The notes beneath the pieces are model-generated. The model saw nothing but the letters and a program-made list of their open reading frames with translations, searched no databases and was not told the origin of the DNA. Source: Bacteriovorax sp. BSW11_IV (GTDB taxonomy: Bacteria > Bdellovibrionota > Bacteriovoracia > Bacteriovoracales > Bacteriovoracaceae). Taken from it: DNA of 38,426 nucleotides. A program made the translations under genes and the position numbers. Positions within the stretch are counted from its first letter, which is position 1. Each line of letters starts with the position of its first letter. The stretch is taken from assembly GCF_000447755.1 (NCBI RefSeq), contig NZ_AUNE01000024.1, positions 1 to 38,426 on the forward strand, given 5' to 3'. Shown here one piece after another: positions 14,756-23,139 of the stretch.

Positions 14756-15295
14756 ATGACGGATGAAAGAACTAGTATCATCTTAGAAACCAGCTTACAG
14801 TCATTTTTTTATGACGAACTCCAATCGGTGAATCGAAAGTCTTCTTCACCACTTCCTAATGAAACCATTTTTTATTCTTCTCTCGTTATGGATAAATTTA
14901 TTCATGCAAAAGAATATTTTGAAGTCGTCGAAGGAAAGGTTCGTGAAAAAACTTTGGGTCTAAAACTTTTAGAAACTCATCACCTTGAGAGTCGCAAAAG
15001 AAAAGTAGCACTCCAAGACATCGGGGATACGGCCCTAATGTTATGTGGGTATTTTTCTGATTCGGTAAATGAGAAAATTGTCGATGTGAAGTACTACCAC
15101 GATGTTGGGATGAGTGCCTATGGGCAACTCAACTCACTTGTGACTTCATTCTATGATGTTCAATATTTCTATAAGAAATTGGCCACACAATTCAATATGC
15201 TGACTAGATTGATACAGATTGTACAAAGCTCTCAGAGCTCAAATAGCTCTCAAGATAAGCAAGATGCTATCTATATCATTAATAATGCATCATAA
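14756..15295 (+). CDS. Conserved-looking cytoplasmic protein of unknown function
   Basis: The 179-residue product has no signal peptide or membrane segment and looks mostly helical, with a Ser/Gln-rich tail at about 160-170. I do not recognise a family. AAGGAGGG precedes the ATG with about 10 nt spacing, a strong site. The region before it (14610-14755) is the divergent gap from the HAD gene and holds a possible -10 element TAGAAT near 14701 without a convincing -35. The amidoligase-like lipoprotein gene follows after 41 bp on the same strand. Confidence 0.75.
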   Translation: MTDERTSIILETSLQSFFYDELQSVNRKSSSPLPNETIFYSSLVMDKFIHAKEYFEVVEGKVREKTLGLKLLETHHLESRKRKVALQDIGDTALMLCGYFSDSVNEKIVDVKYYHDVGMSAYGQLNSLVTSFYDVQYFYKKLATQFNMLTRLIQIVQSSQSSNSSQDKQDAIYIINNAS

Positions 15296-15336: not shown

Positions 15337-16521
15337 ATGAAATCACTCGTTATTTTTGTTTTTACCTTCTCATTCATTGTCAGCTGTTCAAACTTCAAAA
15401 CTGAGGTTCGAAAATCTCGTCGGCCAAGTTCTGTTTCAAACTTTGTGAATTCTTGCGTTGGGACAATTCAAAAATTCTTCGCAATCAATAATGAATTAAC
15501 ACCTGAAGAGATTGCGATAAGATCGCAACTAGACGAAGTTCGTAATATTGACGAGCTAAAAGTTGTACATAAAACACTTTCAAAATTGAAAGAAAAGAGA
15601 ATAAGAGCAATTATAGAAAGTAGTGAACTCGTTCATGCTCTAAATTTTGATCATCTTGATCGTGATCTCTATTCACAGATGATTAGAACCGGAACATTTA
15701 CTCCTGAAGAATTTGATATGCTCGGCTTTCCTACAAAAAGGCCATTGAATCAAATAAAATCTTTTAGAAGTATTGGTGTTGAGATTGAAGGACTTCTGGT
15801 TGATCCAGCTCACAATACCTATAAAAAAACGGCAGAGAAAATTAAAGAATTTTACGATAGTAAAAAACGCTACGCTACTGTTGAAAAAGAGTACACCTAT
15901 AACCTAAGTCGTGTGGATGAATATGGTGAGAGCGCACGAATGTCCTATAACTATTATTCCCCAGAGAACACTTCTCTTTATAAAGTTGAAACAAAATACG
16001 ATAGAAATTTTGAAGTGAAATTTGATGAGACTCTTACGGGATCACCAGAGAACACTTATGGAGTAGAAATCACAAGTCCTATTATTTCAAGACATAGAGA
16101 TAGAGAATTGTTCGAAGAGTTTTTAACGAAGTTAGATGAAATGAATATTGTTGCCTTTCCTGAAAAAGGAGGAATCCATATTCACATTGGAGCCAGTGAT
16201 TTAAGCGTTGGTGATTATAAAAAACTTCTTACAAAATTTATGGCAGACAAAGAAGAGCTATACTCACGATTTAAACCAAGTAAAGGTCGAGGTCTCCAAG
16301 ATGTATTTGTGACAATGCAATTAGAAAAACTAGAAGGTTTTGAGGACATCGCAAAAATTAATACTGTGGACAAGAGAATCTTTCAAAATCGAGGGCCAAT
16401 AGCTTATATACCGAGACTTGAAACAATTGAGTTTAGGCTTTTCAATTCAACCACGGATCCTGAACGAATCCGTGAGATGATTGATTTTTCTTTGGAATAT
16501 TTAGATCAAGTAGACAATTAG
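15337..16521 (+). CDS. Lipoprotein with amidoligase-type (Amidoligase_2-like) domain
   Basis: The 394-residue product begins with a signal peptide and lipobox (FSFIVSC, Cys17), so it should be a lipoprotein. After a helical region (about 50-140) comes a domain with the ordered motifs of the amidoligase branch of the glutamine-synthetase-like COOH-NH2 ligases: GVEIEG (147-152), GVEITSPII (242-250), GGIHIHIGA (278-286) and ETIEFRLFNST (362-372). These are the acidic and His metal/ATP-site positions of the family, which forms amide bonds using ATP. Such enzymes are normally cytoplasmic, so an exported version is odd: either ATP is not used, the substrate is in prey or host, or the export signal is misread. 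The ribosome-binding site is weak. Confidence 0.75.
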   Translation: MKSLVIFVFTFSFIVSCSNFKTEVRKSRRPSSVSNFVNSCVGTIQKFFAINNELTPEEIAIRSQLDEVRNIDELKVVHKTLSKLKEKRIRAIIESSELVHALNFDHLDRDLYSQMIRTGTFTPEEFDMLGFPTKRPLNQIKSFRSIGVEIEGLLVDPAHNTYKKTAEKIKEFYDSKKRYATVEKEYTYNLSRVDEYGESARMSYNYYSPENTSLYKVETKYDRNFEVKFDETLTGSPENTYGVEITSPIISRHRDRELFEEFLTKLDEMNIVAFPEKGGIHIHIGASDLSVGDYKKLLTKFMADKEELYSRFKPSKGRGLQDVFVTMQLEKLEGFEDIAKINTVDKRIFQNRGPIAYIPRLETIEFRLFNSTTDPERIREMIDFSLEYLDQVDN

Positions 16522-18965: not shown

Positions 18966-20492
18966 ATGAAATACGCACTTGTGCTTACTCTATCGTTCAT
19001 TTCTTTAAACGGGCATGCATTGCCATTCAAAGAAGCGAAAGAAATCGTCGAAAAAAGAAATAGCGATAAAAATCCAGACAATGATGTGCGCACTGTTGAG
19101 GCCTTCATAAAAATGTTACCAAATGATTATCGAGAAATCTTTTCGATGATGACCGACTCAAAAAGCTTGCAAACATCAGATGAGGAAAATCCTCGTATTC
19201 TCATGTATGGAAAAGATAGAAGAACTGTTTATACCTTCAATTCTCCCCACGCGACTTCGGGGGGCGATGCCATTGAACTTATGGATACTGTTAGTAAAAA
19301 TGGTAAAACGATTTTTGAGTTTAGAGAAATAAATTTCAAAGACGGTAAAGTGACATATTCACAGGCCAACCCACAAAAATGTATCCGCTGTCATACTCAC
19401 AATACAAATGATGTTCAATTTATGAGACCTAATTGGCAGCCTTACAGTAGATGGGATGGGGCGCTTGGGTCGAATGATGATATTCTTGGCCTTTCTTTTG
19501 GGAGAGGAAACTATGAGCTTGATCTCTACAGGAAAATGCAACAAGAATTTCCAAACAAAGAACGTTATCGCTTATTAAACCTGGAAACTTTCAATAAAGA
19601 TGATGGTAAGGTCACGATTCTTTTTGGCCATGCCAATATGACTTTGACATCAGTTTTAACGCAACTCAATTATGAACGAATTATTACGAGATTAAAAACC
19701 AGTTCGTTTTACGAATATTACAAATATGCTATTTTTGGTGCATCTGCTTGTCGTATGTTTGACGATGGAAAAGATGATGATTTAGAAAAATTTAAAAATA
19801 TGTTTTTCCCTCAAGAGATAAAAGAAAAGCATGATCAACGATATACAAAGGCCATGCGCTATGATTGGTTAGATGAATCGTATAGAGTTAAAGGTACAGA
19901 CTTAGTCATGCCATTGATTAATTATGTCCTAGGTCCTTTGGGAGAGAATACATTTTATTGGTCAATGAATTTCAAACCTAGGCACTTACTCCCAGATCCT
20001 CGTTTTCAAACACCAACAGATTCGAGATCAAATTTCCTAGGAGTATTCCTAAATGAAGATAAAGAATTATTAGAACTTTCTGGGAATCGCATTATCCCTC
20101 AAGACGTCCACGGACAGATGACGATTAAATCTTCACAAATTCACACTGAAGTGTGCGAGAAGTTTGCTCAAAAGAGTATAGAAAAATTAAATGAGCTTGT
20201 TGAAAGCGGCAAGTTGGATTCATACTACGGGAATAGGGCGATATCACTACTTCCAAAAAATATTCAGTCATGCGTTGGCTGCCATAGCGTTGGAGAAGGC
20301 TTTGCTCCTGAAATCCCATTTGCTGATGTCGGTAAGTTTAGGAATGCCCTCGATAAAAAATGGAGAGATTACGACAAAACTCTTCTTGAAATGATTCAAT
20401 ATAAAGTTTCAACGAAGCAAATGCCTAAAGGCATTGACATAACAGATCAACAGCGAGAAGAGATTCTACGCTATTTTGAAAATTTACTATAA
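18966..20492 (+). CDS. Exported two-heme c-type cytochrome (paralog A)
   Basis: The 508-residue product has a signal peptide (to about HALP, residue 20) and two c-type heme motifs, CIRCH at 139-143 and CVGCH at 436-440. Met486 in STKQMPKG, followed by a helix QREEILRYFENL, is the usual axial ligand and final helix of a cytochrome c domain; this C-terminal part is therefore a standard cytochrome c fold, whereas the long middle part is not recognised. The protein should be periplasmic and carry electrons or oxidise a substrate. It is a close paralog of the reverse gene at 21475-23010 (33 of 59 identical over one stretch aligned by eye). AAGGA and a sigma54-like promoter lie upstream; the DUF1456 gene follows 12 bp later. 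Confidence 0.85.
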   Translation: MKYALVLTLSFISLNGHALPFKEAKEIVEKRNSDKNPDNDVRTVEAFIKMLPNDYREIFSMMTDSKSLQTSDEENPRILMYGKDRRTVYTFNSPHATSGGDAIELMDTVSKNGKTIFEFREINFKDGKVTYSQANPQKCIRCHTHNTNDVQFMRPNWQPYSRWDGALGSNDDILGLSFGRGNYELDLYRKMQQEFPNKERYRLLNLETFNKDDGKVTILFGHANMTLTSVLTQLNYERIITRLKTSSFYEYYKYAIFGASACRMFDDGKDDDLEKFKNMFFPQEIKEKHDQRYTKAMRYDWLDESYRVKGTDLVMPLINYVLGPLGENTFYWSMNFKPRHLLPDPRFQTPTDSRSNFLGVFLNEDKELLELSGNRIIPQDVHGQMTIKSSQIHTEVCEKFAQKSIEKLNELVESGKLDSYYGNRAISLLPKNIQSCVGCHSVGEGFAPEIPFADVGKFRNALDKKWRDYDKTLLEMIQYKVSTKQMPKGIDITDQQREEILRYFENLL

Positions 20493-20870: not shown

Positions 20871-21467
20871 ATGCCAAGAAAAAAGTTAATCAGAACTAAT
20901 TTATACCCCTATCACGTAACAATAAGATGCAATAACAAAGAGTGGTTCGATGTTCCTCTTCATATTGTATGGAATATTTGTAAAAGAGCATTGTGTAGAG
21001 CAAATTCAAAACATCCCGTGAAAGTACAGGCCTTTGTATTGATGTCAAATCACTATCATCTAATGATTTGGACTCCTCTTGCGAATATAGATAAATTCAT
21101 GTTTGAGCTCAATCGTAGTATTAGTTTTGAAATTAGAAGTAAAACAGGAAGAATTAATAGAATTTTTGGAGATCGTTATAAATGGACTCTTATTGATAAT
21201 AGCGACTACTACTCAGTAGTGCTTCGATATATTTATCAAAATCCAATTAAGAAGGGGATTGTTGAAATATGTGAGGATTATCCGTTTAGCACTTTAAATT
21301 ATCTTGTAAAAAATAAATCATTTCCGTTAGAGCTTCACACTAGAGATACTTTAGAACTTTATCAGAAGAATTATTTTAACTGCTCGCGATCTCTCTCCAA
21401 CAGAGAAGAGTTTTCAAAGTCGTTTACACGATCAACTTTTAAACCTCCAAAGTGCCATGTTCCCTAA
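20871..21467 (+). CDS. REP-associated tyrosine transposase (RAYT, Y1/HUH family)
   Basis: The 198-residue product has the IS200-like Y1 transposase fold: N-terminal YPYHVTIRCNN, the metal-binding HUH motif in VLMSNHYHLMIW, and a YIYQNPIKKGIV stretch where Tyr in YIYQNP is the candidate nucleophile. RAYTs are single-copy, domesticated relatives of IS200/IS605 transposases that act on REP palindromes. Inverted copies of a 40-bp palindrome flank it at 20750-20789 and 21452-21491. Its last residues (KCHVP) and stop are read from the right palindrome. No ribosome-binding site is visible, suggesting low expression. Confidence 0.9.
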   Translation: MPRKKLIRTNLYPYHVTIRCNNKEWFDVPLHIVWNICKRALCRANSKHPVKVQAFVLMSNHYHLMIWTPLANIDKFMFELNRSISFEIRSKTGRINRIFGDRYKWTLIDNSDYYSVVLRYIYQNPIKKGIVEICEDYPFSTLNYLVKNKSFPLELHTRDTLELYQKNYFNCSRSLSNREEFSKSFTRSTFKPPKCHVP

Positions 21468-21491
21468 AGATGTCTTAAGGGAACGTGGCAC
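21452..21491 (-). repeat. REP-like palindrome, copy B
   Basis: The 40-bp palindrome is inverted relative to copies A and C. It contains the stop codon of the RAYT gene (TAA at 21465-21467, forward) and of the cytochrome paralog B (TAA, reverse, 21475-21477). The last residues of both proteins are encoded inside it. Confidence 0.9.
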
Positions 21492-23010
21492 CTAAGTTTT
21501 CGAAATATTGAATAACCTCTTCTCTTTGCATTGGTGTTAGAGAAATCCCTAGTGGCATTCTTCCTGTTGAAACTTTGTATTTTACAAGCTCAAGCAACGT
21601 AGCCCCTCGACCTTGCCATTCATTTGGTAGTGCTTGTTTTAGGATATTCTCATCATAAAAAGGAAGCTCTGGTGCGAAGAAGCTACCAACACTGTGACAA
21701 CCAATACATGACTGAATATTTTTATTAGGAAGTTTTCTAAAATCATTCTTATAGAAGCTCAAGTAGTCCTGAGTCTTTAAAAATTCTGTTAATGTTTTCT
21801 GGCTGATGGCCGCTAGCTCTTCACAGGCCATATCGTTCAGGGATTCTCCAAGAGACACATCTTGGCCATGAAGATTCGCCCACTGCACTCTTTGTCGTAC
21901 AACTTTTCTAAGCTCACGATCTTCCTTGTTAAATACGCCCGCAAGATTCATGCGCGAGTTTGTGACTGTTTGAAAGCGTGGGTCAGGTAAAATATGGCGA
22001 GGCATGAAATTCATTGACCAGTAGAATGTATTCTCCCCTAGAGGTCCAAGAATATAGTTAATTAAAGGCATTACGGGACTAGCGCTTGATACTTGAAAAT
22101 TTTCATTTAAAAAGTCGTAGCGCATATCTTTTGTAAACTTGCCATCATGAAGGGCAATAAGCTCTTTTGGTAAAAAATCCTTTTTGAAAGCTTCAATATC
22201 ACCGTCACGACCGCGGCCATACTTCTCACAAGAATTGGCGCCGTAAAGAGCATATTTAAAATAAGGATAATAACTTGCATTCATCAGACGAGTTACGATG
22301 CGTTCATAATTTAATTGAGTGATAACAGATGTAAGCGCACTGTTGGCATGACCAGTAAGGGTTGTGTGGCCAAAGTCTTGAACAAAATTATTGATATTCA
22401 AAAAACGGTATCTTTTCTTTGTTGGAAAAGATTTTTGCATTTCTCTATAGGCCTGAAGTTCTTTTTGACCATCTTCAGAAGGTAGGCCTAAGACGTCATC
22501 ATTTGATCCAAGGGCCCCTTGCCATCTGAAAAATGGCTGCCAGTTAGGTCTCATATACTGTTCATCAAGAGTATTATGCGTGTGACACTTAATACACTTT
22601 GCAGGATTTGGTTCAGAAAAACTTACCTTACCGTCATTGAAGGCAATTTCTCTAAATTGAAAAACTGTTTTGTCTCCATCTTTTACAGTATCCATTAACT
22701 CAATGGCATTTCCACCGCTGTAAGACATTTCACTGTTAAAAGTATAAATTGTTCTACGGTTAAGCCCATACATGATGACCCTTGGATTCTTAGAATTTGA
22801 AACCTGAAGGCTCTTCGACTTAATCATGAGAGCAAAATTATTCTTATAGTCTTCTGGAAGTACATTAATAAAATCTTCAACCGTTTTAATGTCATTGTTG
22901 GTGTCGGCATCGCTATTGTTTTTTTCAATAAGTTCTTGGGCCTCATTAAAAGAAAAGGCAAATGCTTGTGAAGTGAGAATATATAAAGAAAGAATTGCAA
23001 TTAATTTCAT
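21475..23010 (-). CDS. Exported two-heme c-type cytochrome (paralog B)
   Basis: From the ATG at 23008-23010 (a TTG one codon earlier is less likely) the product is 511 residues with a signal peptide (to about QAFA). It has the heme motifs CIKCH and CIGCH in the same positions as paralog A, and the Met ligand in STGRMPLG. The two proteins are alike along their whole length. The last five residues (GATFP after YFENL) and the stop come from REP-like palindrome B; paralog A ends YFENLL. The ribosome-binding site is weak (AGG) and no sigma54-like site was seen upstream, so regulation probably differs from paralog A. Confidence 0.85.
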   Translation of the reverse strand: MKLIAILSLYILTSQAFAFSFNEAQELIEKNNSDADTNNDIKTVEDFINVLPEDYKNNFALMIKSKSLQVSNSKNPRVIMYGLNRRTIYTFNSEMSYSGGNAIELMDTVKDGDKTVFQFREIAFNDGKVSFSEPNPAKCIKCHTHNTLDEQYMRPNWQPFFRWQGALGSNDDVLGLPSEDGQKELQAYREMQKSFPTKKRYRFLNINNFVQDFGHTTLTGHANSALTSVITQLNYERIVTRLMNASYYPYFKYALYGANSCEKYGRGRDGDIEAFKKDFLPKELIALHDGKFTKDMRYDFLNENFQVSSASPVMPLINYILGPLGENTFYWSMNFMPRHILPDPRFQTVTNSRMNLAGVFNKEDRELRKVVRQRVQWANLHGQDVSLGESLNDMACEELAAISQKTLTEFLKTQDYLSFYKNDFRKLPNKNIQSCIGCHSVGSFFAPELPFYDENILKQALPNEWQGRGATLLELVKYKVSTGRMPLGISLTPMQREEVIQYFENLGATFP

Positions 23011-23139
23011 CAATCAACCTAAAGTTTACTTAGTAAAACACTTCTACTGATTTAGCACTTTGCTTATTGTTTTAGAACAAAAAATCAACATCTTTTAAAA
23101 AGTTTTAAGGTAACCCTATGAAATTAAGAAGATATAAAA

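Follow-up and report, generated by a model that had tools for sequence, protein, structure and literature searches.

An exported clade of amidoligases, to which the protein encoded at this locus belongs, raises the question of the source of ATP outside the cytoplasm. ATP is scarce outside cells, ATP-dependent ligases are, to our knowledge, held to be cytoplasmic, and ATP-dependent amide ligation is itself a prediction for the Amidoligase_2 family as a whole. In the window (the whole stretch of 38,426 nucleotides from Bacteriovorax sp. BSW11_IV analysed here), the first-pass annotation had read an amidoligase-type domain with four ordered motifs in a predicted lipoprotein with a signal peptide and lipobox, and had regarded missing active-site residues or a cytoplasmic location as evidence against this reading. 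The open reading frame lies exactly at the positions given there, on the + strand (Table 1).

Table 1. Features of the gene for the predicted amidoligase-fold lipoprotein (positions in the window; a slash marks the predicted cleavage site).
Feature	Positions	Strand	Basis
Amidoligase-fold exported lipoprotein, 394 aa	15337..16521	+	ORF list and PF12224 match
Lipoprotein signal peptide, residues 1-16 MKSLVIFVFTFSFIVS	15337..15384	+	sequence, lipobox IVS/C, strict-rule 'lipo' flag
Cys17, predicted lipidated residue, Ser at +2	15385..15387	+	sequence
Tether motif R-R-P-S-S, residues 28-32	15418..15432	+	R-x-P-[AS]-S then Cys (here C40), common to clade lipoproteins
Amidoligase_2 (PF12224) domain, residues 144-386	15766..16494	+	profile match and GS-like fold (VIA-align)
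Motif 1 G147-V-E149-I-E151, predicted metal ligands	15775..15789	+	G147, E149, E151 invariant, n=41
Motif 2 G242-V-E244-I-T-S-P248, E244 predicted metal ligand	16060..16080	+	E244, P248 invariant, n=41
Motif 3 G279-I-H281-I-H283	16171..16185	+	H281, H283 invariant, n=41
Motif 4 T363-I-E365-F-R367-L-F-N370-S, predicted metal ligand and phosphate-binding Arg	16423..16449	+	T363, E365-N370 invariant, n=41

The N-terminus (MKSLVIFVFTFSFIVS/C17SNF) had the layout of a bacterial lipoprotein signal, with Lys in the n-region, then a hydrophobic core and then the lipobox I-V-S-C; it was recognized both by eye and by a strict in-house rule (positive n-region, hydrophobic core, and cleavage site or lipobox), and a lipobox was also present in the same-genus ortholog of 38% identity (LFLIIS/CQS). 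The signal peptide annotated earlier was thus borne out, and the conserved lipobox speaks against a cytoplasmic location, for which no sign was found. The window protein is likely a membrane-anchored lipoprotein with a predicted lipid on Cys17, probably in the outer membrane because the residue at +2 is Ser and not Asp. An N-terminal part of approximately 125 residues precedes the amidoligase domain, and C40 is the single further cysteine of the mature protein. The tether motif, which lies a short way C-terminal to the lipidated Cys and consists of R-x-P-[AS]-S with a Cys after it, was found in seven of the eight clade lipoproteins and in L005, a lipoprotein that shares the N-terminal part alone, without the ligase domain, versus one of 12 other lipoproteins; the N-termini with the motif are those of the window protein, L004, L005, L014, L058, L061, L062 and L168. 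The motif may place the protein, as a sorting tag, or bind a partner.

The PF12224 profile of Pfam matched the window protein with E=2.3e-19 and 70.7 bits over model positions 3-242 of 245, and this strong match is not due to chance because the score is more than three times the curated cut-off (22 bits). A match to TIGR00106 of NCBIfam was below the cut-off and outside the amidoligase domain, and was discarded as noise. The four motifs were all present in order (V-G-V-E149-I-E151-G, Y-G-V-E244-I-T-S-P, G-G-I-H281-I-H283-I-G and T-I-E365-F-R367-L-F-N-S-T), and the domain assignment of the first-pass annotation therefore stands. Forty relatives of 19-30% identity, taken from named genomes, were aligned with the window protein; the cytoplasmic ones among them belong to Bacillota, Lentisphaerota and Spirochaetota. 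Sixteen residues were invariant in the 41 sequences (G147, E149, E151, D230, E244, P248, H281, H283, R352, T363, E365, F366, R367, L368, F369 and N370). The motifs G-x-E-x-E, E-x-x-x-P, H-x-H and E-x-R were also invariant in 13 exported proteins of the window's clade. In glutamine synthetase, two metals and the ATP phosphates are bound by E-x-E, a further Glu, a His and E-x-R; the metal and ATP roles would be assigned residue by residue in the window protein by likeness to this enzyme. All the expected catalytic residues were present, and the active site, not the fold alone, appears to be conserved, since the sixteen residues are shared with cytoplasmic members at such low identity. Positions 353-355 are G, P and I in the window protein, versus nearly invariant Y, N and L in the cytoplasmic members.

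The structure was predicted with AlphaFold2 from the 41-sequence alignment (mean pLDDT 73; mostly 75-92 in the domain's strands and helices), and residues ~137-394 of the model were compared with VIA-align against the candidates of Foldseek; Z values of 8 to 10 are to be read as moderate, as is the model itself. The best match was glutamine synthetase with ADP and phosphate (Z 10.2, 3.3 Å, 173 residues), followed by YbdK (PDB 1r8g; Z 9.7, 189 residues), Dop (Z 8.2, 3.9 Å, 181 residues; entries with ADP and phosphate in the site) and arginine kinase (Z 7.8). Foldseek alone gave no match to the model at E<=0.001, and its low-TM-score hits to S-adenosylmethionine decarboxylase and phosphoglucomutase were rejected as noise; no chain was matched convincingly in the sequence search against solved structures. 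That the top structural matches are known superfamily members is reassuring for the predicted fold. The structure prediction that had been suggested for this protein thus returned the glutamine-synthetase-like fold expected of Amidoligase_2, by VIA-align though not significantly by Foldseek alone; the same fold is expected of Dop/PafA, as a feature common to the whole superfamily. With glutamine synthetase, the E-x-E, Glu, His and E-x-R residues are shared in addition to the fold, although that enzyme forms large rings in the cytoplasm and is ~8% identical to the window protein. YbdK, a glutamate-cysteine-ligase-like carboxylate-amine ligase, shares the fold but is cytoplasmic, of a different family, and 14% identical. 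The whole domain and all the catalytic motifs are shared with the cytoplasmic type of Amidoligase_2 (putative amidoligases of Bacillota and phages); however, the PF12224 members of other phyla that were examined start at motif 1 without a signal, whereas the window protein is a predicted lipoprotein of a separate clade.

PF12224 was found in 56 of the 291 genomes sampled across the phylum. A further copy, of 334 aa and with a signal peptide of the ordinary kind, lies on contig C57 of the window's genome (E=1.6e-10), and both copies have orthologs in the sister genome. The scan of named genomes for relatives, made with a 4-row alignment, gave the best 80 of 199 relatives; the scan of genome contigs with the window protein alone as the query gave no match, nor did that of the plasmid collection, and the phage amidoligases were distant and of the cytoplasmic type only. 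In the tree of 62 PF12224 domains, two cytoplasmic groups, A (eight proteins of the phylum) and F (26 proteins of Bacillota, Lentisphaerota and Spirochaetota), were apart from two exported groups, B and C. Fourteen of the 15 members of group B, which contains the window protein, were placed together (SH-aLRT 98), and the fifteenth, L054, had a very long branch; the 11 members of group C (SH-aLRT 99) were placed with cytoplasmic group A. Two separate export events in the phylum are likely but not proven, because the root is a midpoint root used for drawing only.

An earlier, loose signal rule had flagged approximately half of all the ORFs and was replaced by the strict one, which flagged none of the window's known cytoplasmic genes (e.g., DnaK, DnaJ, GrpE and MreB). 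Under the strict rule, an export signal was found in 13/15 members of group B and 10/11 of group C, versus 0/8 of group A and 0/26 of group F (0/34 cytoplasmic relatives); these counts are of related proteins and are not independent observations. The two group B proteins that were missed, L059 and L061, have plain signals by eye, and the signal of L056 is perhaps a membrane anchor. Four more members of group B, all with signals by eye, came from a profile search of 369 genomes, so that the clade has export signals by eye in 19/19 members, including these four found after the claim had been made. Proteins at the 78 loci of other phyla begin near motif 1, and the four flags of the loose rule fall inside the domain. 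Export, as predicted from the signals, is conserved in the clade through deep divergence, and the clade has so far been seen only in its phylum, as judged for other phyla from the best 80 of 199 relatives in the scan of named genomes. It is patchy (~15/369 genomes) and hence not core to predation. The first-pass annotation was right about an exported amidoligase; the clade, the second genomic copy and the ATP-grasp clade described below were beyond its view. No report of exported amidoligases in the phylum was found in the papers searched, although a key 2009 amidoligase survey may mention signal peptides, and this exported branch of Amidoligase_2 with its active site apparently intact would be an undescribed variant within a known family.

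In group C, an R2K-like ATP-grasp domain with its E-x-N signatures kept occurs in the same exported chain or in the next exported gene; the matches are weak but consistent (e.g., L047, E=9.9e-5; L076 6097-7437, E=0.0066; below the Pfam cut-offs). The exported PF12224 loci joined to ATP-grasp are L042:1-2217, L047:1381-3630, L049, L052, L011 (1150 aa; one ATP-grasp part before the amidoligase and another after it) and L076:5009-7443. Successive peptide ligations have been proposed for ATP-grasp and COOH-NH2 ligases that are linked (PMC4431377), and the term 'signal peptide' is absent from the text of that paper. Group C resembles the R2K ATP-grasp clade described there in joining PF12224 to an R2K-like ATP-grasp domain, whereas the window protein itself has none. 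The phylum thus has two folds of ATP-dependent ligase-type domain among its exported proteins. Two other architectures were seen. Exported proteins of ~800-1100 aa, widespread in the window's family (L065:1984-4998, L068:3302-6124, L069:4309-7554 and L066:3593-6037), have apparent tandem amidoligase-like domains, two by motifs by eye versus one, weakly, by Pfam. In two genomes of the phylum (L012:145-3003 and L055:181-2517), a PF12224 amidoligase is fused to a ResIII/DEAD helicase, possibly as a defence or mobile-element protein.

The gene upstream of the amidoligase gene (14756-15295) encodes an uncharacterised 179-aa protein with no Pfam match. An operon of the two genes was rejected as they are unlinked in the sister genome, and since the upstream gene is also widespread (26/30 genomes searched across the phylum), gene context gives no substrate. 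PF12224 genes elsewhere have glutamine-amidotransferase-like or AIG2-like neighbours; neither reading nor the Pfam scans made turned up any such gene among the ORFs of the window. The promoter and terminator scan was no better than shuffles. Elsewhere in the window, two convergent genes for exported cytochrome-c-like proteins (18966-20492, +; 21475-23013, -; 54% identical) flank a Y1 (IS200-like) transposase gene (20871-21467).

The presence of the amidoligase domain and the export of the window protein are close to certain, and the protein is most likely a membrane-anchored amide ligase or Dop-like amide hydrolase outside the cytoplasm. For a ligase, we propose the following. The C-terminal domain of the lipid-anchored protein, which has the glutamine synthetase/carboxylate-amine-ligase fold and lacks none of the predicted metal and ATP residues, would activate a carboxylate outside the cytoplasm by phosphorylation from ATP and would link the activated carboxylate to an amine of a peptide-like molecule, such as a peptidoglycan peptide or a protein. 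ATP might be drawn from prey: while the predator grows inside a prey cell, or when that cell is lysed, the cell contents would be accessible at the predator surface; this use of prey ATP is the least certain step. Modification of peptidoglycan or prey proteins, as well as a predatory lifestyle of this organism, is presumed here. An ATP transport system is reported for Bdellovibrio (Ruby and McCabe 1986, as cited in PMC4834554), and predators of the phylum can therefore meet prey ATP at their surface. The nucleotide transporter family PF03219 had no more than a weak match in the window's genome (1.5e-10), which was not taken as a sign of ATP parasitism because such a match is not diagnostic; a clear ATP/ADP translocase (PF03219, E=3.9e-180), L159 (G002:C221:3-1418), occurs in the genome of one family member only, and the matches in other genomes were weak. 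Taken as a whole, an amide-bond-forming enzyme at the cell surface supplied with ATP from damaged prey is a tentative reading, to which we give somewhat less than an even chance.

The first-pass annotation, sound as to domain and lipobox, had left out of account a hydrolase with the same fold and residues. Dop (depupylase/deamidase) of the pupylation system retains its nucleotide and performs hydrolysis, an example of amide-bond cleavage by this fold; a protein of this kind would use bound nucleotide and phosphate as a cofactor, cleave amides (acting as a deamidase or isopeptidase) and consume little ATP on balance, or none. This would suit an ATP-poor place and a predator dismantling prey proteins or peptidoglycan, and the structural match to Dop, with ADP and phosphate in its site, is consistent with it. 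However, glutamine synthetase and YbdK scored higher (though the differences are small), the likeness is at the level of the fold, and Dop is cytoplasmic, Pup-specific and found in bacteria with Pup. Moreover, a Sec-exported protein crosses the membrane unfolded and would yet need to acquire its nucleotide outside. We consider a Dop-like hydrolase possible but rather unlikely. An ATP-free reuse of the fold, for metal-dependent binding or hydrolysis by a lipoprotein that retained the metal site and lost carboxylate phosphorylation, would accord with the scarcity of ATP outside the cytoplasm and with the altered positions 353-355; but the window protein retains E244, R352, the two His and the E-x-E and E-x-R pairs, and the second exported clade carries additional ATP-grasp domains, for which we know of no use without ATP, so that this explanation is unlikely. 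Delivery as a secreted effector into the prey cytoplasm, where ATP is millimolar, would solve the ATP problem directly and has a precedent in the Sec-dependent secretion of degradative enzymes into prey by Bdellovibrio (PMC2797640); nevertheless, the lipid anchor ties the window protein to the membrane, which makes this highly improbable here, and it could apply instead to those clade members that are soluble exported proteins without the anchor. A cytoplasmic enzyme with a chance hydrophobic start or a misassigned start codon is barely credible even though the signal prediction rests on in-house rules, given the lipobox kept in the ortholog, the export signals throughout the clade, including the four later finds, and a start ~145 residues before motif 1, near which the cytoplasmic members begin.

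Beyond the surface amide ligase proposed for the window protein, ATP-dependent peptide ligation may have left the cytoplasm on two or more occasions in the phylum, once with the amidoligases (lipoprotein and soluble) and once with amidoligase plus ATP-grasp, for extracytoplasmic ligation or tagging on prey ATP; we put this forward as doubtful. If it is true that the active-site-intact proteins act outside the cell, either ATP-driven chemistry takes place there, plausibly on prey ATP, or the fold has found a second, ATP-free trade. Both alternatives rest on the conserved, exported, active-site-intact branch and on the parallel exported branch with ATP-grasp.
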